Below are positions 549 to 9,413 of a stretch of DNA of 64,000 bases, one piece after another. Every line of letters begins with the position of its first letter. The first letter of the stretch is position 1. Origin of the DNA: Methylomonas methanica MC09 (GTDB lineage Bacteria > Pseudomonadota > Gammaproteobacteria > Methylococcales > Methylomonadaceae); contig NC_015572.1 in the NCBI RefSeq assembly GCF_000214665.1, forward strand, positions 124,001 through 188,000, read 5' to 3'. Both the position numbers and the translations under genes were made by a program. The notes beneath the pieces were generated by a model, which saw nothing but the letters and a program-made list of their open reading frames with translations, was not told where the DNA came from and searched no databases.

Positions 549-898
549 TCCAGGGTTGGAAATCAGAACGCTTCTACTTTTTAAATCATGCTGGTTGGTG
601 CAAAACAGGGTTGGATCATGTATGGGCACAACAAGTCGTTGCCTGTAAAAGTTGGTGGGAGCAATGCTCGTTATCGGCCAACAGCCGACTGTCGCGCTTA
701 TCAAGCCAATGACCGGTGAAAGTCCCATAGCTGCCGATCAACGGAGTTAAAAAGATGCGCCCCGAAAACAAGGAAAATTAATTCTTAACATACCAGTACT
801 GAGCACAGTGTTGAGCCTGATGCTGTATTGTTTGCCTTGTTCTTCCTTGAAAACGTCAACATTCGAATATTCAGGAAGAAAATGGTTTCGGCGCCATT

Positions 899-913
899 TA
901 TCATCAGATGATA
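899..913. promoter_or_regulatory. Palindrome upstream of the toxin-antitoxin pair (candidate autoregulatory operator)
   Basis: TATCATC-A-GATGATA is a perfect 7+1+7 palindrome ending nine bases before the ATG at 923. Toxin-antitoxin operons are commonly repressed by their own DNA-binding antitoxin at such sites, and the second gene encodes a helix-turn-helix protein. The operator role is inferred. Confidence 0.45.
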
Positions 914-922
914 TGATTAGCC

Positions 923-1288
923 ATGCTTCAAGAATCAGGTATAGATACGCTTTTGGAACTTGATCAACAGATTCTTGATCAGGGTAATGGCTATTGGATC
1001 AAAATTGAGGCGAGGCGTGTGACACCAACTAAAGAGATTCCGCATGGTATACGTTACTCACTGACTTTACATGAACCGTACGGCAAACGAATCCTGGGTT
1101 ATGACAATGCCCATGCCGTCAAGCTGCCGAAAAAATTTAAATTTGCCGGGCAGCGTTTAGCCTACGACCACAAGCACCGGAATATCTGCGACCAAGGTGT
1201 GCCTTATGAATTTCAAAATGCCTATCAACTTTTAATGGACTTTTTTGCAGAGGTTGACAGGGTATTGGAGGAGATTAGAAAGCTATGA
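923..1288 (+). CDS. TumE-like (DUF6516) toxin of a toxin-antitoxin pair
   Basis: This 121-residue protein resembles the TumE/DUF6516 toxin family in size, composition and partner. It has a basic central block (YDHKHRN) and a C-terminal YEFQNAYQLLMDFF segment typical of these small toxins. It is followed with a 4-base ATGA overlap by a helix-turn-helix gene, the usual TumE-TumA order, which implies coupled translation. TumE proteins have been reported as toxins of plasmid addiction modules; the biochemical target is not obvious from sequence. The pair lies inside the candidate mobile element between ruvX and pyrR and may stabilise it. Assignment rests on remembered family resemblance, not on a search. 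Confidence 0.65.
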   Translation: MLQESGIDTLLELDQQILDQGNGYWIKIEARRVTPTKEIPHGIRYSLTLHEPYGKRILGYDNAHAVKLPKKFKFAGQRLAYDHKHRNICDQGVPYEFQNAYQLLMDFFAEVDRVLEEIRKL

Positions 1289-1632
1289 GTACAGTTATGA
1301 TTGGCATCCTGCCACAGGAAAAAATGCGGGAACGGGTGCTGGCTATTGCCAAAGGCGAATACAAGCCGGAACCGTCAGAGCCGAAAATATGGTTCACATC
1401 AATGCGCTCTCTAGCAGAAGTGTTGAGCGACGACAACCGGGCACTCCTGAAAATCATTCAGGAAACCCATCCGGAATCAATTTCATCTCTGGCCGTGATT
1501 ACCGGTAGAAAACCAAGCAATCTGTCTCGTACCCTGAAAACCATGTCGAATTATGGTTTAGTGGAAATGCGGCGCGAGAGAAATCAAGTCCGGCCAATTG
1601 CGGTGGCTACTGAGTTTCAGATTTTCGCTTGA
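1285..1632 (+). CDS. TumA-like helix-turn-helix antitoxin
   Basis: This 115-residue protein has a MarR-like winged-helix region in its C-terminal half. SISSLAVITGRKPSNLSRTL reads as the recognition helix-turn-helix, and GLVEMRRERNQVRP as the wing. The N-terminal third, with PQEKMRERVLAIAKGE, resembles the start of archaeal-type HVO_A0114 DNA-binding proteins, which pair with TumE toxins. Its start overlaps the toxin stop (ATGA). It probably neutralises the toxin and represses the pair through the palindrome at 899-913. Toxin-first order is unusual for classical modules but normal for this one. The HTH call is good; the antitoxin role is inferred from the neighbour. Confidence 0.65.
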   Translation: MSTVMIGILPQEKMRERVLAIAKGEYKPEPSEPKIWFTSMRSLAEVLSDDNRALLKIIQETHPESISSLAVITGRKPSNLSRTLKTMSNYGLVEMRRERNQVRPIAVATEFQIFA

Positions 1633-1796
1633 GTTAATGCCGACTGTTGGTTTGTAAAACAAGGTAGCAACTGGATAAACTAAGAATTGATGTGTCATTG
1701 CCAGACGAGTGTATTCAGGTCTTAACTTGCCCCAAGTTCTATAAATGAAATTCCAACTATTGTCCGTTGGTCAACACTTCTACCTAATTGGCGGCG

Positions 1797-2843
1797 ATGG
1801 AAACAAACAATACTGTCACAGCCGAGCGATTTTTAGCATTTCTCAAATGCCCGACGAAAGCCTATTTTCTGGCACATGGTGAGCCCCTGCCAGAAACTTA
1901 CTTTTCCAATGTCGAGAAAGAAATCACCTCAAGGTACAAATTACGGGCGTGGCGGATGCTTCAAGACAGGAATGAGCCTGCTAAACCGCTGACTTTCGAG
2001 CAAATGGCCGATGGCGATAGCCTTGCAACGACTACGCGTTGGTTCGAATGCGACACAGCCGTCTTAGACAGCTCCCTTTCTCGCAACGGAGTGGCAGAAC
2101 TCTGCACGCGAAAATCAGTTGTGGACGTCCCTATCGTTCCGGTGGTTTTTACTCCCTGGGAGAAGCCAACGCTTTCCGATAACTTGCTCTTGTGTTTTGG
2201 TGCTCTTGCGCTGTCGCAGTCCACCGGGATACATTCAGAAATTGGTATGTTGTTCTTCGGAGATAATCTTCGCCAGAAAACCGTCCGGTTTTCCGATCAC
2301 GCCGAAGAGTTTAACCAAATTATCAACGCGATAGGTACAATTCCTCCCGGAGGCCAAGAACCCCAGTGCATCCTGAACGAACATTGCGCCGTTTGTGACT
2401 TCCAGCTAAAGTGCCGAACCATTGCGATAGAACGAGACGATTTGAGCCTCCTATCCGGAATGGCGCCCAAGGAAAGGAGAAAGACCCTCGCCAAAGGTAT
2501 CCAAACTATATTACAGCTATCCTACGGTTACCGTCCGAGACGACGTCGAAGGACCAAGCCAGATGCGGAACGCGCAGCTCGATCCGTTGACACACATCAC
2601 ATTCACCCCTCCAGTCGACATGACAATAAACTCAAGGCGCTGGCTATTAAAAAGAGCCGAATCCACGTTGTCGGCACTCCAAGCCTGAATTTGTGTGGAG
2701 TTCCGGTCTTTATTGACGTCGAAGGCATGCCTGACAGAGACTTCTACTATCTCATCGGACTGCGGTTTGATTCATTCGATGAGCAGATCGAACATTCGTT
2801 CTGGGCAGCGGAAAATTTCAAGCTAGTTGTCGCCTCGACGTAA
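1797..2843 (+). pseudogene. N-terminal part of a Cas4/RecB-like nuclease (TM0106-like), cut by an IS3-family insertion
   Basis: This is the 5' part of a large gene whose 3' part resumes at 4473. The N-terminus resembles the TM0106 RecB-like nuclease family. A lone cysteine (FLKCPTKAYFL, near residue 18) and a CAVCDFQLKC cluster near residue 200 match the four-cysteine Fe-S pattern of Cas4/AddB-type nucleases. After a basic linker (RPRRRRR), FIDVEG near residue 310 looks like motif I of a DEDD/RNase H-fold exonuclease. The frame stays coherent until the insertion repeat at 2824; the last residues come from the IS end and stop at 2843. The ATG at 1797 is chosen; a TTG at 1788 is also in frame. 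It is certainly disrupted, and the nuclease assignment is from motifs. Confidence 0.7.
2824..2836 (+). repeat. IS3-family element terminal inverted repeat, OrfB-side end
   Basis: TAGTTGTCGCCTC, reverse complement of 4460-4472. It lies 12 bases downstream of the OrfB stop codon. Confidence 0.9.
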
Positions 2844-2848
2844 AAATA

Positions 2849-3928
2849 CTATGCGGTTATTTTGTCTGGATTAGCGACCTCCTGGGGCGAGTTGTTTTGG
2901 GTTTCGGCATGATCCGGATTTAGATGCACGGTATGGATTCTGTTCCAGTTCCGGGTGTTTTGGCTCCAGCGCCGTGGGTTTTGGCGGCGGGCGTCTTCAT
3001 AGAGCGCTTTGCGTTGATTCAACAGTGCCTCGTCCAATCCGGCGTGGCGTTGGGCCGGGGTCACGAAGCCAATGGCGCTATGCCGATGTTCGTGGTTGTA
3101 CCATTGCACCAGGTCGGCTACCCACTGCCGGGCGGCGACCAGGTCGGCAAACGGTTTTAACGGGTATTGCGGACGATATTTCAGGGTTTTGAACAGCGAT
3201 TCCGAATACGGATTGTCATTACTCACCGCCGGTCGGCTGAGCGAGGGCATGACGCCAAGCTGTTGCAGGGTGGCCAGCATCGTGGCGCCTTTCATGGGGC
3301 TGCCGTTATCGGAATGCAGGATAACTTGCCCAGGTTGTAGCCCTTCGCGTAAAACAATATCCCGTAACAACTCGCTGGCGTATTGGCTGCTTTCTGCCTC
3401 AAATACCCGCCAGCCGACGATCTGGCGACTAAAAATATCGAGGAACAAGTAGAGGTAGTAGAACTGGCCTTTGACTGCGGCCGCAAGATAGGTAATGTCC
3501 CAGCTGTAGAGTTGATTGGGCGCGGTCGCACTCAAGGCTTTGGGTTTGGTACGTGGCTGACTGGGACGTTCACTGCGGCGGTGTTTCAGTTGCCGGGCGG
3601 CTTTCAGTAGGCGATAGATCGTCGATTCGGAGCCCAGATAAATCCCCTGATCCGCCAAGCGCGGGACAATCTGGCTGGGTGGCAAATCCGCAAATTCGGC
3701 GGAATTGGCCACGGCCAGAATGTGGTTGCGCTCGGCCTCGGTCAGCGCATGCGCCGGCGTATATTGCCGCGGTCGCCGGTCTTCGCCCGGGGTTTCGCCG
3801 GCCTGCCAGCGCTGCAAGGTGCGCGGGCTCAGGCCCAGCACGGCACAGGCTTGGTCTTGGCGGGCACCGGCCTCGGTGGCTTCGGCGACGGATTCGATCA
3901 GGGTTTGGCGCTGCTGAAGGGATGTCAT
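2849..3928 (-). CDS. IS3-family transposase OrfB (DDE integrase core)
   Basis: This 359-residue protein has an N-terminal helix-turn-helix (DQACAVLGLSPRTLQRWQ) followed by an rve/DDE catalytic core. The first Asp is in YSWDITYL, the second in ILHSDNGSPM and the Glu in PYSESLFKTLK, so the triad is intact. The C-terminal HRHSAIGFVTPAQRH is typical of IS3 OrfB. Its ATG overlaps the OrfA stop in an ATGA at 3925-3928, indicating coupled translation rather than the programmed -1 frameshift of many IS3 elements. It should act on the 13-bp repeats at 2824 and 4472. Length and motifs are complete, so the element may still be active. Confidence 0.95.
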   Translation of the reverse strand: MTSLQQRQTLIESVAEATEAGARQDQACAVLGLSPRTLQRWQAGETPGEDRRPRQYTPAHALTEAERNHILAVANSAEFADLPPSQIVPRLADQGIYLGSESTIYRLLKAARQLKHRRSERPSQPRTKPKALSATAPNQLYSWDITYLAAAVKGQFYYLYLFLDIFSRQIVGWRVFEAESSQYASELLRDIVLREGLQPGQVILHSDNGSPMKGATMLATLQQLGVMPSLSRPAVSNDNPYSESLFKTLKYRPQYPLKPFADLVAARQWVADLVQWYNHEHRHSAIGFVTPAQRHAGLDEALLNQRKALYEDARRQNPRRWSQNTRNWNRIHTVHLNPDHAETQNNSPQEVANPDKITA

Positions 3929-4425
3929 TCGACCTCGCCCGCCAACAGCGCCCGCACCTTTTTTTGCAGGATCAATAAGGCTGCCGCTTCAGCGAGGGCC
4001 TTGTCCTTACGGTTGAGTTCGCGTTCCAGGCGTTGATTCTCCACTTTCAGTGCGCGCAGGGTTTGACTGGCATCGCCGTCTGAACGGGAGCGGGTGACGG
4101 CACAAAAATCGCTTTTCCACTGCGCGAGTTGATGAGCAAATAGCCCACGTTGCCGACACCAGGCGTTTAGGGCCTCATCGGTCAAGCCATGGCTTTCATG
4201 AAGTGCCTGCAAGCGTTCTTCAGGGCGCCAATCTTGTGGGCGCTTGGCTGGATTGGGTTTCGGGGTATCGGTCTGTGCTGCGTTGCTCATCCAGGTTTTT
4301 AAGGTATGTATGCTGAGGTTAGATTCGTCGGCAATGTCTTGAATGGTTCGTTTTCCACGTTTGTAGACTTTTGCCAGGGCTTGCTCTCTGAACTCGTCAG
4401 AATACTGCTTTTTCGGGGTAATCAT
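3925..4425 (-). CDS. IS3-family transposase OrfA (HTH and leucine-zipper protein)
   Basis: This 166-residue protein has an N-terminal helix-turn-helix (FREQALAKVYKRGKRTIQDI) of the transposase_8 type and a second, DNA-binding-like middle segment. A C-terminal coiled coil (LRALKVENQRLERELNRKD) probably serves dimerisation with OrfB. It is somewhat longer than the common 90-120 residue OrfA proteins because of the middle segment. The start is only 47 bases inside the right terminal repeat, the normal arrangement. It overlaps OrfB by four bases. Confidence 0.93.
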   Translation of the reverse strand: MITPKKQYSDEFREQALAKVYKRGKRTIQDIADESNLSIHTLKTWMSNAAQTDTPKPNPAKRPQDWRPEERLQALHESHGLTDEALNAWCRQRGLFAHQLAQWKSDFCAVTRSRSDGDASQTLRALKVENQRLERELNRKDKALAEAAALLILQKKVRALLAGEVE

Positions 4426-4459
4426 TTTTTATCTCAAATTTAATGGATTCTATAAATTT

Positions 4460-4472
4460 GAGGCGACAACTA
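4460..4472 (+). repeat. IS3-family element terminal inverted repeat, OrfA-side end
   Basis: GAGGCGACAACTA, reverse complement of 2824-2836. The interrupted gene resumes at 4473. Confidence 0.9.
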
Positions 4473-4496
4473 TTTTGACGCGGGGGGGCAGACGGA

Positions 4497-6233
4497 GTGG
4501 AGGATGAGCACAGAGTATGGGAGGAATGTCTACGGACGATAAAGTCACTCGAAAACGCGCAGCTTGTCCATTATGGCGCCTACGAGACGCATTTTCTCCG
4601 CAGAATGAAGACGCGGTATGTTTCAAGACCTGAAGATGTTGAGTTCATCGATCGGCTAATCGAAACGTCTGTTAATCTTGTCGCATGCATGTATGGGTGC
4701 GTATATTTCCCGACATATTCAAACAGTCTCAAAGAAATTGGCAGATACCTCGGTTATGAATGGGCTTGGCAACACGCATCCGGTGCCTCGGCAATTCTGA
4801 TGCGCAAATTATGGGAGCTATCAGCACAAACCGACATCAAGGACTTGCTCGTCGCATACAACATGGACGATTGTCGAGCGGCCGCCCTGATTGCCGAAGC
4901 GTTAGGGCGGATATGCACTAGAAACTCCTCAATGCCCGATTTGGTCGACGTCGGATCACTCGAAGTCGGGTTCCAGCGAACGTTTGGCAAATTTGATTCG
5001 GCTCTACCAGAGTTCGCCAAGATCAACGACGCCGCATACTGGGATTATCAGCGGTCGAAGGTCTTCACAAGGACAGACAAGACGGTGCGACGTACAATCC
5101 AGAAATCTAACTGTCACGAGAAGATTCCCACATTCGATAAGGAAATAACTATCGTTGATGATATGCCTGCAAAATGCCCCAAATGCTCCACGACCAAACT
5201 TTGGCGATATCTGCCAAGAAGATCAAACGTTGTATACGATTTAAAATTTTCGGACAAAGGGGTAAAACGCTCGTCGGTAAAATACCGGTACAGTTACTAT
5301 AAGTGTACCGGTTGCTTCGCTGAAATGACTTTCTATGAAAGAAAATCGAAATACGGTCCCAATCTACGCGCATTTTTAGTGTACCTCGTGATTGAACTCT
5401 TGCTTTCAAATCGGAAAGCGGCCGATCACGCATCTTTGTTGTTCGGTTTGCCCTTGACCAAAAGCGCCGTGGGCCATATTAAGTCCGAAATGGCAGCGAA
5501 ATATGTTCCAACCTACCAGAGTATCCTGCATCAAATCGCGAATGGCCCCCTAATTCATGCTGATGAAACCAAAGGTGTTGTCTTGGGTGGAGGGCATTAT
5601 GTATGGGTATTCGCCAACATGACGACGGTCGCATACGCCTATTCCGAATCGAGGGAGTCTAGCATATTGGAAACCGTATTGGATGGATTCAAAGGGGTGC
5701 TCGTCTCTGACTTCTACGCGGCATACGACTCGGTTCCCTGTCCCCAGCAGAAATGCCTTATTCACTTGATGCGCGATATCAACGAAGATCTAAACAGAAA
5801 TCCTTTTAACGAGGAGTTCAAAGCAATCGCATGCCAATTCGGTGCGCTGCTCCGCGAGATACTCGAAACAGTAGACCAGTATGGATTAAAGACCAGACAC
5901 CTAGGCAAGCATCGACGAGCAGCTGATAGATTCATCGAGCATGTTGTGAGGCTGAGTTGTGCCACCGAGGTCGGACGGGCATTCCAAAAGCGCATCGAAA
6001 AAAACAGTGACAAACTATTTACCTTCCTGTCTTACGACGGCGTGCCGTGGAACAACAACAATGCAGAGCATGCAGTTAAAGCTTTTACCCGCCTGCGGAA
6101 TGTTATTAACACAAGCTCTCCAAAAGGGACTCGCGACTATGCCACGCTACTAAGCATTCAACAGACACTGAAGTATCGAGGAAAGGAATTTCTAGAATTT
6201 ATGAGATCTGGCGAGATGGAAACCCCTGGTTAG
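4497..6233 (+). CDS. C-terminal part of the nuclease-transposase fusion: DEDD exonuclease half, zinc ribbon and IS66-type DDE transposase
   Basis: Residues about 1-140 continue the exonuclease domain begun before the IS, with a VHYGAYETHF motif and YNMDDC near 121-126. Paired CXXC motifs at about 227-230 and 270-273 form a zinc ribbon like that preceding IS66 catalytic domains. The DDE residues read IHADET (Asp 356), VSDFYAAY (Asp 405) and NNNNAEHAV (Glu 524). The C-terminal end is IS66-like. Intact, the joined gene would encode about 930 residues. The GTG at 4497 is only the first usable start after the IS; no good ribosome site precedes it. Joined directly, the halves are one base out of phase. 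The G7 run at 4482-4488 may have changed, or a 4-bp target duplication, not now visible, may once have explained the difference. Any product from here would lack the Fe-S nuclease. Confidence 0.8.
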   Translation: MEDEHRVWEECLRTIKSLENAQLVHYGAYETHFLRRMKTRYVSRPEDVEFIDRLIETSVNLVACMYGCVYFPTYSNSLKEIGRYLGYEWAWQHASGASAILMRKLWELSAQTDIKDLLVAYNMDDCRAAALIAEALGRICTRNSSMPDLVDVGSLEVGFQRTFGKFDSALPEFAKINDAAYWDYQRSKVFTRTDKTVRRTIQKSNCHEKIPTFDKEITIVDDMPAKCPKCSTTKLWRYLPRRSNVVYDLKFSDKGVKRSSVKYRYSYYKCTGCFAEMTFYERKSKYGPNLRAFLVYLVIELLLSNRKAADHASLLFGLPLTKSAVGHIKSEMAAKYVPTYQSILHQIANGPLIHADETKGVVLGGGHYVWVFANMTTVAYAYSESRESSILETVLDGFKGVLVSDFYAAYDSVPCPQQKCLIHLMRDINEDLNRNPFNEEFKAIACQFGALLREILETVDQYGLKTRHLGKHRRAADRFIEHVVRLSCATEVGRAFQKRIEKNSDKLFTFLSYDGVPWNNNNAEHAVKAFTRLRNVINTSSPKGTRDYATLLSIQQTLKYRGKEFLEFMRSGEMETPG

Positions 6234-6495
6234 TTTCAATCTTTGGATTCAAGATACAAGCTCACGATTTCCCCTCACGTGGACGTCAGATCCACTTGAC
6301 AAACCGGCCATTCAAAATAAATGTCGACAGGCTGGTTTGGGTCGTAACAACACGATCATGCTTTACCAAACCAAGCCGTGAATTTTACGAGAACCGATTT
6401 TCAACCATGTGATTGAACTTGGTGATAAAGCTCAGTCGCCCGCACTCCAAACTTATTATGCAAATAGCCGAAAAAACCAAAGAAAAAAATGCCGC
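6234..6495. other. Intergenic region containing the right edge of the inserted element
   Basis: No gene is seen. It holds an interrupted palindrome (TGGTTTGG at 6333-6340 and CCAAACCA at 6366-6373), the inverted repeat at 6458-6470 and the flanking A-run at 6471-6476. The remaining 19 bases before the ruvX stop are probably native. Confidence 0.5.
6458..6470 (-). repeat. Right 13-bp terminal inverted repeat candidate
   Basis: ATGCAAATAGCCG, exact reverse complement of 536-548. It is followed by AAAAAA at 6471-6476, matching the A-run beside the left copy. Confidence 0.55.
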
Positions 6496-6981
6496 TTATT
6501 TTCGTTCTTCGCCCTGTCTCTTTGCGCTATCGGCAATTTCGTTAAACCAACTTTGCAGAATCAATTGCGCGGCCAGTTGGTCCTGAACCGCCCACAGTTT
6601 ACCAGCGCTGACTTTCAGGTCGTCAAATAACAATTGCTTGGCGGCAAAGGTGGTCAGGGTTTCGTCGATTTGGTGTACCGGCAGATTGTAGCGGCCGTTG
6701 AGTTGGCGGCAAAATTTTTGCATGCGCGGGGTGATAACGTTGTCCGAACCGTCTTGTTGGCGGGAAATGCCCACTACCAATCCCAGCGGACGCCATTCGG
6801 CCACCAATTTGCCTATGGTGTCCCAATCCGGTACTTGGTTTACCGAGCGCAGGGTTTGCAAGGGGCTGGCGATGCCGGTATCGGCGTAGCCCACCGCCAC
6901 CCCGATTTTTTTATTGCCGAAATCGAAGCCCAAATACGCATCGCTGCTGAATTTGGCTGCCAGCGGATCGGGTCTAGCCAT
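6496..6981 (-). CDS. ruvX: RuvX/YqgF Holliday junction resolvase-like nuclease
   Basis: This 161-residue protein has the RNase H-fold signature YLGFDFGNKKIGVAVG, with its catalytic Asp near residue 19, and later VVGISRQQDGS and VHQIDETLTT motifs. YqgF proteins are linked to Holliday junction resolution and to 16S rRNA 5'-end processing. The start overlaps the algH stop by 8 bases. With gshB and tonB this is the conserved gammaproteobacterial operon that normally continues into pyrR; that continuation is broken here by the inserted element. The length is slightly above the usual 140-150 because of an N-terminal extension. Confidence 0.95.
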   Translation of the reverse strand: MARPDPLAAKFSSDAYLGFDFGNKKIGVAVGYADTGIASPLQTLRSVNQVPDWDTIGKLVAEWRPLGLVVGISRQQDGSDNVITPRMQKFCRQLNGRYNLPVHQIDETLTTFAAKQLLFDDLKVSAGKLWAVQDQLAAQLILQSWFNEIADSAKRQGEERK

Positions 6982-7540
6982 GGCCGGGCGTCGTGGTGAG
7001 GCGGTTAATGTCGATACCCAGTTGGCTGGCGGCCGCGTTCCAACGTTGATTGATGGGCGTTTCGTACAAAATCGCTTCCCCGCACGGGGTGTTTAGCCAG
7101 GCATTTTCGACTATTTCCTTTTCCAGTTGTCCGCTGCCCCAGCCGGCATAGCCCAGCGCTATCAGGTATTGAACAGGCCCCTGACCCTTGGCAATCGCTT
7201 CCAGAATGTCGCGCGAGCTGGTCAGGCTAATATTGTCTGCGGTGGAGATGCTGGAATCCCAGGTTTGTTCGCACGGGCTGTGAATCACGAAGCCGCGTTC
7301 CTGCTGTACCGGGCCGCCGGCAAAAACCGGCGTGTTCAGCACGTCTTCCAAATCGGTTTCTATGCCCATTTGTTCGAAAATATCTTTCAATTTCATATTG
7401 GTGGGGCGGTTGATGACGATGCCCAGCGCGCCTTCCTGGTTGTGCTGGCACAGGTAGGTCACGGTATGAAAGAAGTGCGGATCGAACAAGCTGGGCATGG
7501 CGATCAAAAATTGATTATTAAGGTAAGTGCTATTTGTCAT
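6974..7540 (-). CDS. algH: YqgE/AlgH family protein (UPF0301)
   Basis: This 188-residue protein carries the UPF0301 hallmarks: FLIAMPSLFDPHF near the N-terminus, GALGIVINRP, VFAGGPVQQERGFVIH and ALGYAGWGSGQLEKE. The molecular function of the family is not settled; the name comes from an alginate-regulation phenotype in Pseudomonas. It lies 17 bases after tonB and overlaps ruvX by 8 bases, the standard order. Length is normal for the family. Confidence 0.95.
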   Translation of the reverse strand: MTNSTYLNNQFLIAMPSLFDPHFFHTVTYLCQHNQEGALGIVINRPTNMKLKDIFEQMGIETDLEDVLNTPVFAGGPVQQERGFVIHSPCEQTWDSSISTADNISLTSSRDILEAIAKGQGPVQYLIALGYAGWGSGQLEKEIVENAWLNTPCGEAILYETPINQRWNAAASQLGIDINRLTTTPGHG

Positions 7541-7557
7541 AACGATGCGGGGTTGGG

Positions 7558-8460
7558 CTAGCGTGCGGTCATGCCGGTTTCGTCTGAAAACTTCCAGACA
7601 CGAGTAATGACTAAAACGTTCACTTCGTTGAGTAAGTCCGCCGGTAAAGCTGCAAAAGGGGCGCTCATTTTGACTATGCGTTTGGCGGCTTCATCCAGGG
7701 CGGGGTTGCCGGATGAGCGGACGATACGCATGCTGTAAATGCTGCCGTCGGCGTTAATGCCGACATCCATGGTCAGCGATTGGGACGAACCCGGTTTTTT
7801 GGCGGCGGCGGGATAATTAAGATTGCCGGTGCGCTCAACTTTGTCTTCCCAGTCTCTGACATATTGTGCCGCCAAATACTTATGCGTGCTGACGGATTTG
7901 ACGAATTTTATTTTACTGTCTTCGGCGCTCTGCCGGGTATTGCGTATTTGTTCGCCCAATTGGGCGATTTGTTGCTGTAAGGCGTCTGCGGTTAGCTTAG
8001 GCCGTTCCGCAGTGACTTCTTCCACGGGTTCTTCCACCGTTTCCGGCGGCGCGGCAACTTTTACTGGTGCCTTTGCCTGGGTGACGACTTTCCGTGGTGT
8101 CGGTTTTTGGGCTTCCCGTGCGAGCGGTTTGGCTGGTTCGACCTTAACAGGAGGCGCTGCCGCGACTGCCGGAGTGGGTAAGCTTTGCTTTAGGGGTTCG
8201 GGTTTTTGGGTCGCATCCCCTGCCCCGAGTTGATGGTCCGGAGCCAGGTATTTGGCTTGCTTGGGGGCTTTTTTTAAGGGGGCGTGCGACAAGGTGATTT
8301 CGATCGACTTATTGGTTCTCGGCGCATGCGGCGCTTTAAAATTGACGCCCAGTAAAATGCCGACATGCACCACGGTGGCAACGAAGACTGCCAGCAGCAG
8401 CGAGTCGTCGTTGGAAAGCGGTGAGCTTGCGGGAGGCTGGGCTTGCATCATGGGTTTCAC
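7558..8460 (-). CDS. TonB-family energy transducer
   Basis: This 300-residue protein has one N-terminal membrane segment (LLLAVFVATVVHVGILLGV, about 22-40), a long Pro/Lys/Ala-rich periplasmic spacer (about 45-150) and a short coiled region. The C-terminal TonB-like domain includes DVGINADGSIYSMRIVRSSG. TonB proteins couple inner-membrane proton motive force to outer-membrane receptors. The family position between gshB and algH matches Pseudomonas, where this copy is one of several tonB paralogues. No exbB or exbD lies nearby, so its partner complex is elsewhere. Its start overlaps the gshB stop by 4 bases (ATGA). Confidence 0.9.
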   Translation of the reverse strand: MKPMMQAQPPASSPLSNDDSLLLAVFVATVVHVGILLGVNFKAPHAPRTNKSIEITLSHAPLKKAPKQAKYLAPDHQLGAGDATQKPEPLKQSLPTPAVAAAPPVKVEPAKPLAREAQKPTPRKVVTQAKAPVKVAAPPETVEEPVEEVTAERPKLTADALQQQIAQLGEQIRNTRQSAEDSKIKFVKSVSTHKYLAAQYVRDWEDKVERTGNLNYPAAAKKPGSSQSLTMDVGINADGSIYSMRIVRSSGNPALDEAAKRIVKMSAPFAALPADLLNEVNVLVITRVWKFSDETGMTAR

Positions 8461-9413
8461 GTTGTCGATTGCAGGCAGTCCTGTATATGGTCCATCAGTT
8501 GCGCGCTGATATTGATGCCGAACTGCTTATCAAGTTCCTGCACGCAGGTCGGGCTGGTGACGTTGACTTCGGTCAGATAATCACCGATTACGTCCAGGCC
8601 GACGAATACCAGACCCTTTTCACGCAGTGTGGGGCCGACTTGTTTCGCAATCCAGCGATCGCGTTCGCTGAGTTCGCGACCCTCTCCACGGCCGCCCGCG
8701 GCGAGATTGCCGCGGGTTTCGCCGCTGGACGGGATTCTGGCCAAGCAGTACGGTACCGGTTCGCCATTTACCATCAAAATTCGTTTGTCGCCGTCTTTCA
8801 CCGCCGGCAGATATTTTTGCGCCATGATGTAACGCGAGGCATGCTCGGTCATGATTTCCAGAATTACGCTGAGATTGGGGTCGTTTTCGCGCACGTGAAA
8901 AATCGAGGCGCCGCCCATGCCGTCCAGCGGTTTCAGAATGATTTCCCGATGCTGTTGCAAGAAGTCCCGAATTTTTTGCGGGTCGCGGGCTACCAGGGTT
9001 TCAGTGCAGCATTGCGGAAACCAGGCCGTGTACATTTTTTCGTTGGCGTCGCGTAGCGATTGCGGCTTATTGACCACATAAACGCCTTGCCGCTCGGCTT
9101 GTTCCAGCATGTAGGTGGCGTAAATATATTCCTGATTGAAGGGCGGATCCTTTCGCATCAGGATCACGTCCAATTCAGACAGCGCTATCTGTTGTTCGCC
9201 CACAAAGCGGTGCCATTGTTGCGGATTTCGTTCGACTTCCAGCAGGCGGGTGCGGGCGTAGGTTTGGCCGTTTTGTAAAAACAGATCGCCCAATTCCATG
9301 TAATGTAACTCCCAGCCGCGCGCCTGCGCTTCCAACAGCATGGCGAAACTGGTGTCTTTTTTGATGTTGATCTGGCCTATGGGGTCCATGACCATGCCGA
9401 ATTTAAGCGTCAT
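8457..9413 (-). CDS. gshB: Glutathione synthetase
   Basis: This 318-residue ATP-grasp enzyme joins glycine to gamma-glutamylcysteine in glutathione synthesis. It has the N-terminal MDPIGQINIKKDTSFAML motif, DVILMRKDPPFN, the ATP-grasp core EIILKPLDGMGGASIF and the C-terminal FVGLDVIGDYLTEVNVTSPT. Length matches bacterial GshB (about 315). It heads the gshB-tonB-algH-ruvX operon and is divergent from rpmB, with 139 bases between. Confidence 0.97.
   Translation of the reverse strand: MTLKFGMVMDPIGQINIKKDTSFAMLLEAQARGWELHYMELGDLFLQNGQTYARTRLLEVERNPQQWHRFVGEQQIALSELDVILMRKDPPFNQEYIYATYMLEQAERQGVYVVNKPQSLRDANEKMYTAWFPQCCTETLVARDPQKIRDFLQQHREIILKPLDGMGGASIFHVRENDPNLSVILEIMTEHASRYIMAQKYLPAVKDGDKRILMVNGEPVPYCLARIPSSGETRGNLAAGGRGEGRELSERDRWIAKQVGPTLREKGLVFVGLDVIGDYLTEVNVTSPTCVQELDKQFGINISAQLMDHIQDCLQSTT

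Follow-up and report, generated by a model that had tools for sequence, protein, structure and literature searches.

The window analysed here, 64,000 nucleotides of Methylomonas methanica MC09 (NC_015572.1, positions 124,001 to 188,000), carries a gene in which a nuclease-like N-terminal unit is fused to an IS66-type transposase, and which is itself interrupted by an IS3-family insertion sequence (IS). The 5′ part of this fusion gene (1797–2808, forward strand; start codon ATG at 1797, with TTG at 1788 as an alternative) encodes an iron-sulphur (Fe-S)-type RecB-like head devoid of PD-(D/E)XK residues and the start of a DEDD exonuclease with its IDVEG motif. The 3′ part (4488–6233, forward strand) encodes the rest of the exonuclease, including YNMDDC, followed by a zinc ribbon and an IS66-type DDE transposase module. 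The two pieces were searched separately, and statements on the full-length protein are drawn from intact relatives. In profile searches, the 5′ part matches positions 2–311 of TIGR03491 (TM0106; E=2.4e-14) as well as Cas_Cas4 at E=0.0026, which is below that model's cut-off. The 3′ part, from 4497 on, matches positions 331–460 of TIGR03491 and then 18–381 of the IS66 model NF033517. Because the 3′ part resumes TIGR03491 where the 5′ part leaves off, 1797–2808 and 4488–6233 are taken to be one split gene, whose coordinates the initial annotation had placed correctly on either side of the IS3-family insert. The 3′ part also matches RNase_H_2 (E=3.9e-12) and DDE_Tnp_IS66 (PF03050; E=4.6e-29), the latter with 102 bits for a cut-off of 23.1, while the NCBI equivalog model NF033517 gives scores of 173 and 170 bits, under its cut-off of 180. 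For TIGR03491, the window halves taken apart reach 53 and 80 bits and the intact Polaromonas relative P0003 reaches 154.4, the cut-off being 97.45. Profile searches of the fusion protein returned no Cas1 match, and the fusion was found once in the 5.05-Mb genome.

Intact relatives are about 915 residues long, close to the 930 or so predicted by the initial annotation for the gene without its IS, and the motifs that it had listed (four cysteines, IDVEG, YNMDDC, zinc ribbon and complete DDE residues) are all present in the window pieces. Among 34 aligned fusions, the four Fe-S-type cysteines are invariant, the DEDD exonuclease residues are kept throughout save for E368 (32 E, 2 D), and the DDE residues D693, D742 and E861 are found in every sequence. 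The RecB-like head has lost its nuclease residues in these aligned sequences while keeping the cysteines: the D of D-x-K is present in 1/34, the K and the Q in 0/34, the first D is aligned in only 8/34, and the Q..Y residues are gone in nearly all, whereas the PD-(D/E)XK residues are intact in the three true TM0106 proteins (3/3) of the comparison set. The nuclease fold was apparently retained for the cysteine cluster after the active site went. The suggestion of a nuclease able to process DNA ends, made by the same annotation, therefore fails for the four-cysteine part, whose site is lost, and is possible for the DEDD exonuclease, whose residues are kept. Structural comparison, which it had also proposed, bears out the exonuclease as polymerase-B-like and the DDE part as ISCth4-like; all fold matches listed fall in these two parts, the head lies outside them, and its RecB-like label is sequence-based. 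The ISCth4 transposase belongs to the IS256 family and moves by copy-out-paste-in; it differs from the fusion in sequence family, is similar in fold and is not known to carry an exonuclease or Fe-S head. The fold is what links the fusion to copy-out-paste-in transposons, which are marked by a circle or figure-eight intermediate. The modules of the fusion are under purifying selection, the DDE module being the best conserved part.

As the local copy is interrupted, the apparent fusion could be suspected of being a chance read-through of two adjacent genes in this genome only. The search for full-length homologues advocated in the initial annotation argues otherwise. The 3′ part matched 3458 proteins among 8000 scored candidates, and both PF03050 and PF13482 (RNase_H_2) are present in all 120 listed homologues, 99 of which are at least 840 residues long. 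Of 161 pattern matches in genome contigs, 158 encode a relative; locus-level work used the 80 best of these, and 66 of the 80 loci (one a duplicate) hold the fusion in a single reading frame of at least 850 codons from stop to stop. The two parts are thus not always separate proteins elsewhere, the finding that would have made the fusion a local accident. The divergence of the two halves is also linked (Mantel r 0.70, 0/2000 permutations as high, 34 sequences). Chance read-through is counted as refuted, and hardly any credence is left to it. In a phylogenetic tree, the 34 fusions lie on one side of a branch and 12 plain IS66 transposases on the other, with support of 86/94; this branch recurs in 88% of 200 bootstrap trees, although the tree program flagged long branches. 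The best explanation is that a single ancient fusion placed a COG2251/TM0106 unit N-terminal to the zinc ribbon and DDE transposase of an IS66-type enzyme. Databases name such proteins after one parent or the other, and the family is hidden because of this filing.

Comparison with both parents shows what was kept and what changed. Like the ISBst12 group of the IS66 family, the fusion combines a zinc ribbon and a DDE module (D, D, E) in one gene, with no tnpA or tnpB seen; it differs by an extra N-terminal unit of about 480 residues, by its separate clade and by scores below the NF033517 cut-off, and no inverted repeats with the 8-bp duplications of the IS66 family were found at its loci. ISDge4, for instance, has a 449-residue transposase, terminal inverted repeats (TIRs) and an 8-bp repeat (PMC12898284). 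With COG2251/TM0106 (TIGR03491), the fusion shares the four cysteines and the DEDD RNase H-like exonuclease in the same order; it is without the PD-(D/E)XK residues and bears a transposase in place of the AAA domains reported for COG2251 in PMC3985635, where COG2251 stands with DUF83 and AAA, and IS66 in another clade. Casposons are mobile too and may carry a Cas4-like nuclease, one of them encoding a Cas4-like/helicase fusion; their integrase is Cas1 rather than DDE, and in PMC4046053 the nuclease is joined to the helicase, not to the integrase. In agreement with the initial annotation, which knew of no characterised element of this make-up, no description of such a fusion was found in the open-access literature searched, subscription papers and preprints lying outside the search.

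In sequence surveys, the fusion gene is rare, patchy and shared across phyla. At E<=1e-70, it was found in 2/398 genomes of the phylum, 3/201 of the order, 2/81 in the genus of G202 and 1/399 in the family of G778, and at E<=1e-100 in 3/146 in the genus of G203; every one of these counts takes in the own or query genome. No near-identical copies were found in the genomes around Mesorhizobium and Polaromonas (the 3/146, 2/81 and 1/399 searched sets). The 65 examined loci carry 11 phylum labels, taken from submitters' titles of bins that may contain stray contigs, and the DDE tree of these loci requires 31 label changes, the minimum being 10 and the shuffled mean about 41.5. Some genomes (G210, G211) contain three divergent full-length fusions. 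In an Acidobacteria bin (L010:4978–10735), two divergent fusion genes stand in tandem about 450 bp apart, the second having 31% identity to P0003 and being ended by the contig edge. Two Microvirga tunisiensis contigs with different fusions have 333 bp in common at 98.8% (L003:4222–4554 and L006:3851–4183); this stretch is the end of one fusion plus the adjacent flank, as though an element had inserted next to what remained of the other. A viral or phage origin was considered and set aside: no relative was confirmed in viral contigs, and phages gave one weak DDE-only match.

The two halves have also recombined. Across 328 pairs from 70 sequences with 50–97% protein identity, identity at fourfold sites is 0.39–0.53 in windows of residues 121–360, 0.36–0.38 before them and 0.29–0.37 from 361 to 900. 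In L020 and L047, from one metagenome bin, fourfold identity switches sharply from 0.84 inside to 0.27 outside; L059 has about the first 400 codons in common with L060 and about codons 450–900 in common with L068. Inside exceeds outside in 513 of 693 pairs, L172/L173 and the group of L070/L074 being among the exceptions. Mosaic recombination explains this peak better than an overlapping reading frame, which was not convincing: median open runs are not longer in that region, and alternative-frame stops are only slightly fewer inside residues 120–360 than outside in all five frames (e.g. 2.57 vs 2.97 per 100). With the same 65 loci, the tree of residues 120–400 needs 26 phylum changes, compared with 31 for the DDE tree, and the head tree alone unites the three copies from one Shewanella bin. 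Heads therefore track host phylum somewhat better than DDE modules, mainly in Verrucomicrobiota (3 vs 8 changes); the figures are 8 vs 9 in Pseudomonadota and equal in Acidobacteriota (8/8), Planctomycetota (6/6) and Nitrospirota (4/4).

The fusion is read as IS66-derived with a new anatomy, and we put at close to even the chance that it serves as transposase to an element of low copy number that spreads horizontally and consists of this single gene, with its ends at or very near those of the gene. This boundary is proposed because a cyanobacterial plasmid retains only about the first 25 and the last 236 bp of the gene. In plasmid5 of Aulosira laxa, a 25-bp stretch that begins 3 bp upstream of the start codon is identical (25/25) to Calothrix PCC 7716 and is joined to the last 236 bp of the gene (94%), in surroundings that are otherwise unrelated; this derivative provides the clearest boundary for the gene's ends. 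In such an element, the Fe-S head would grip duplex ends or forks, the DDE module, with its ISCth4 transposase fold, would cut and join strands, and the attached exonuclease would trim the 3′ ends of either donor or target, whether ahead of the joining step or following it. Transposases normally depend on the host for end trimming and repair. Trimming of 3′ ends would make precise inverted repeats less necessary, and no regular target duplication would result; neighbouring toxin-antitoxin genes would be cargo or hitch-hikers, and a partnership of the head with host replication or repair proteins would account for its following host phylum. We regard as rather unlikely the stronger proposal of a new class of mobile genes, TIR-free, combining a DDE transposase, a polymerase-type exonuclease and a dead Fe-S RecB head, in which the coding sequence is nearly the whole element, the head is swapped with resident relatives as an adaptation to each new host and the DDE module travels between phyla.

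The fusion could also come from an ordinary member of the IS66 family that has an enlarged transposase and terminal repeats that were missed, being short or imperfect. PF03050 scores far over its cut-off, in favour of that explanation, and NF033517, against it, stays short of its own. The mapping of the ends of intact copies, suggested by the initial annotation, relied on an end finder that seeks inverted repeats bordered by a direct repeat of 5 bp or more, at equal settings for fusions and controls. At a score of at least 24, it retrieved 0/66 fusion loci, 3/12 plain IS66 loci and 0/193 mismatched flank pairs, so that the fusions yielded no inverted repeats with target duplication; the three positive IS66 controls (L085, L087, L089) have GTAA ends with 8–9 bp repeats. 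The power of this test is modest, because 9/12 plain IS66 controls fail too, some for short flanks, a point that favours an ordinary element. Lowering the score to 22 adds one fusion locus, L064, with a 9-match inverted repeat and a 7-bp direct repeat, above the 193 mismatched flank pairs. In the Mesorhizobium pair L002/L062, conservation reaches about 60 bp upstream of the gene and 75 bp downstream, and in these stretches a faint CYGGYGG inverted motif, likewise in favour of ordinary ends, can be read by eye. Neither tnpA nor tnpB was seen adjoining the fusion, whether in the window itself or in the 25 top Pfam families found for neighbouring genes; this speaks against a typical element and does not exclude IS66, because the ISBst12 group has a single open reading frame (ORF; PMC12898284). 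Altogether, an ordinary IS66 element appears improbable.

Other searches around the gene concerned weaker signals. Among inverted repeats within 400 bp, only those of L033, L034 and L049 score at least 15; they were rejected since they look by eye like local dispersed palindromes, no direct repeat flanks them among the pairs listed, and that of L049 sits beyond the next gene. No hairpin common to 22 flanks was seen by eye. In L041, a terminator-like hairpin by an apparent tRNA 3′ end (by eye) is repeated across the fusion gene (55–98 and about 3186–3240). Conserved noncoding ends, looked for in close pairs, were not common to the family, boundaries varying by subfamily and 15 upstream stretches showing no motif by eye. 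The matching place in Calothrix NIES-4101 is free of the gene, yet offers no clean empty site because the far flank differs. Towards the 3′ end of the gene, constraint at the DNA level was found in one Verrucomicrobia-rich group only (0.58 vs 0.33 at fourfold sites) and was set aside because it is absent outside that group (0.29 vs 0.30).

Several observations weigh against a single-gene mobile element. No element end was mapped in any locus examined, with the modest power given by the nine failing controls; BLAST extends the left match of the Aulosira derivative 18 bp further into AT-rich DNA at lower identity, and this single case could be a decayed fragment. Searches of 12 genomes brought up no near-identical second copy, although draft assemblies could conceal one, as suggested by two Microvirga tunisiensis contigs labelled with coverage 246 and 111, whereas some relatives hold several near-equal copies of plain IS66. 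The edges of the window's own insertion (690–6335, described below) show no visible target repeat, in three Nitrospirae the fusion has one and the same Mg-chelatase-type gene as its neighbour, the behaviour expected of a host gene, and the exonuclease and Fe-S functions are ones that we infer from sequence. A domesticated transposase is a serious rival: a chromosomal or island-borne DNA-processing enzyme, serving defence, genome rearrangement or the control of other elements, carried within islands and plasmids by other vehicles and itself no longer mobile. It would explain the missing ends and the low copy number, with one copy or divergent copies per genome, about as well. The identical locus in the three Nitrospirae, the toxin-antitoxin neighbours (16/148 near vs 4–5/148 far), the closer tracking of host phylum by the head than by the DDE module and the purifying selection on the modules are all consistent with it. 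Conversely, the DDE module is the best conserved part, with every catalytic residue kept, the larger neighbours are varied, with no consistent defence partner among those listed, and the deletion derivative on Aulosira laxa plasmid5 has new flanks. We hold domestication to be possible, on the doubtful side of even. The unusual transposition route put forward in the initial annotation is suggested by the absence of detected IS66-type ends, mobility being deduced indirectly, and is not demonstrated. The fusion is a real gene, widespread across many phyla. A family that is under selection, with an exonuclease and an Fe-S-type module in one chain and no ordinary ends, would suggest either that a DDE enzyme can find and join DNA by a different route or that a tamed transposase has been put to a new purpose.

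At the level of the locus, the fusion gene lies in a segment (690–6335) that also holds a toxin-antitoxin pair and is absent at the equivalent place in relatives. On one side is a pyrR-like gene that ends at about 476, and on the other a ruvX-like gene that begins at 6496; the two names were given by eye. In seven relatives of the genus (L160, L161, L163–L167), these two genes are 83–131 bp apart, an eighth (L162) being too short to score. The relative G165 retains 477–689 and 6336–7560 of the window with other cargo genes between, and G684 aligns only from 6340 onward. Because relatives hold no genes or other genes there, 690–6335 is considered a variable insertion at a hot spot. Its right edge falls just before 6339–6476, parts of which recur as a dispersed repeat (about 68–84%) in this and other genomes of the genus. 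In L049, a RAYT-like gene (7957–8502; by eye) with GTGCGTTA palindromes directly follows the fusion, and G165 has a gene similar to it (by eye) at the pyrR-ruvX spot.

The pair beside the fusion consists of a TumE-like toxin gene (923–1288, forward strand; PF20126, E=3.1e-8) and an overlapping gene for a helix-turn-helix (HTH) partner with an HVO_A0114 domain, a putative antitoxin (1285–1632, forward strand; PF25212, E=6.2e-20). Small ORFs within 738 bp of fusions (near set, 148 of 169) were compared with those at least 2.5 kb away (far set, 148 of 164). By Pfam, at least 16/148 near ORFs are of toxin type (Gp49 6, PIN 6, PIN_3 1, DUF5615 3), compared with at least 4 or 5/148 far ORFs (PIN 2, PIN_2 1, HigB 1, ParE 1). 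Single scans, confined to near ORFs, contributed two more, ParE in L031 and DUF3368 in L055, each of which is below Pfam's own cut-off. The near toxin-type ORFs are spread over 17/78 loci. Counting 18 near and 4 far, Fisher's test gives p 0.0015, or 0.007 after collapsing homologous loci (15 vs 4), figures that favour the near side through the two added sub-cut-off ORFs and the use of 4 rather than 5. L026 and L029 have both the fusion and a Gp49/HTH pair in common but differ in their flanks, and an Acaryochloris plasmid copy has VapC and a partner 200 bp upstream of the fusion. The association may be hitch-hiking, because mobile regions are rich in such genes. A HipB-like (by eye) and HipA-type (Pfam) pair lies 1.7 kb downstream of the Polaromonas fusion (L170:11376–12697), and directly upstream of the Mesorhizobium fusion (L062:4334–4813) is a putative Tn554-type TnpC/DUF6262-like protein. 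To probe for a defence-island setting, PADLOC and Pfam models were run against the larger ORFs around the fusions of L002–L081, 89 of them near and 87 far; such a setting was rejected, although some enrichment is possible: PADLOC families matched number 159 near and 27 far, with many overlapping models. There is no consistent defence partner, because none of the PADLOC models listed (25 per list) matches more than two ORFs; the larger neighbours are varied and many are housekeeping genes.

The IS3-family IS that splits the gene occupies 2809–4487 on the reverse strand, with orfA at 3925–4425 and orfB at 2849–3928, and encodes rve and HTH_Tnp_1 domains. The flanking GCAG at 2805–2808 (left) and 4488–4491 (right) is likely its 4-bp target repeat, as judged from the sequence and from IS ends given by the genome copies. 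The 5.05-Mb genome contains at least 27 near-full copies, the window copy included, a lower bound since 40/64 candidates were scored; their ends agree within about 5 bp, and the element is probably very active in this genome.

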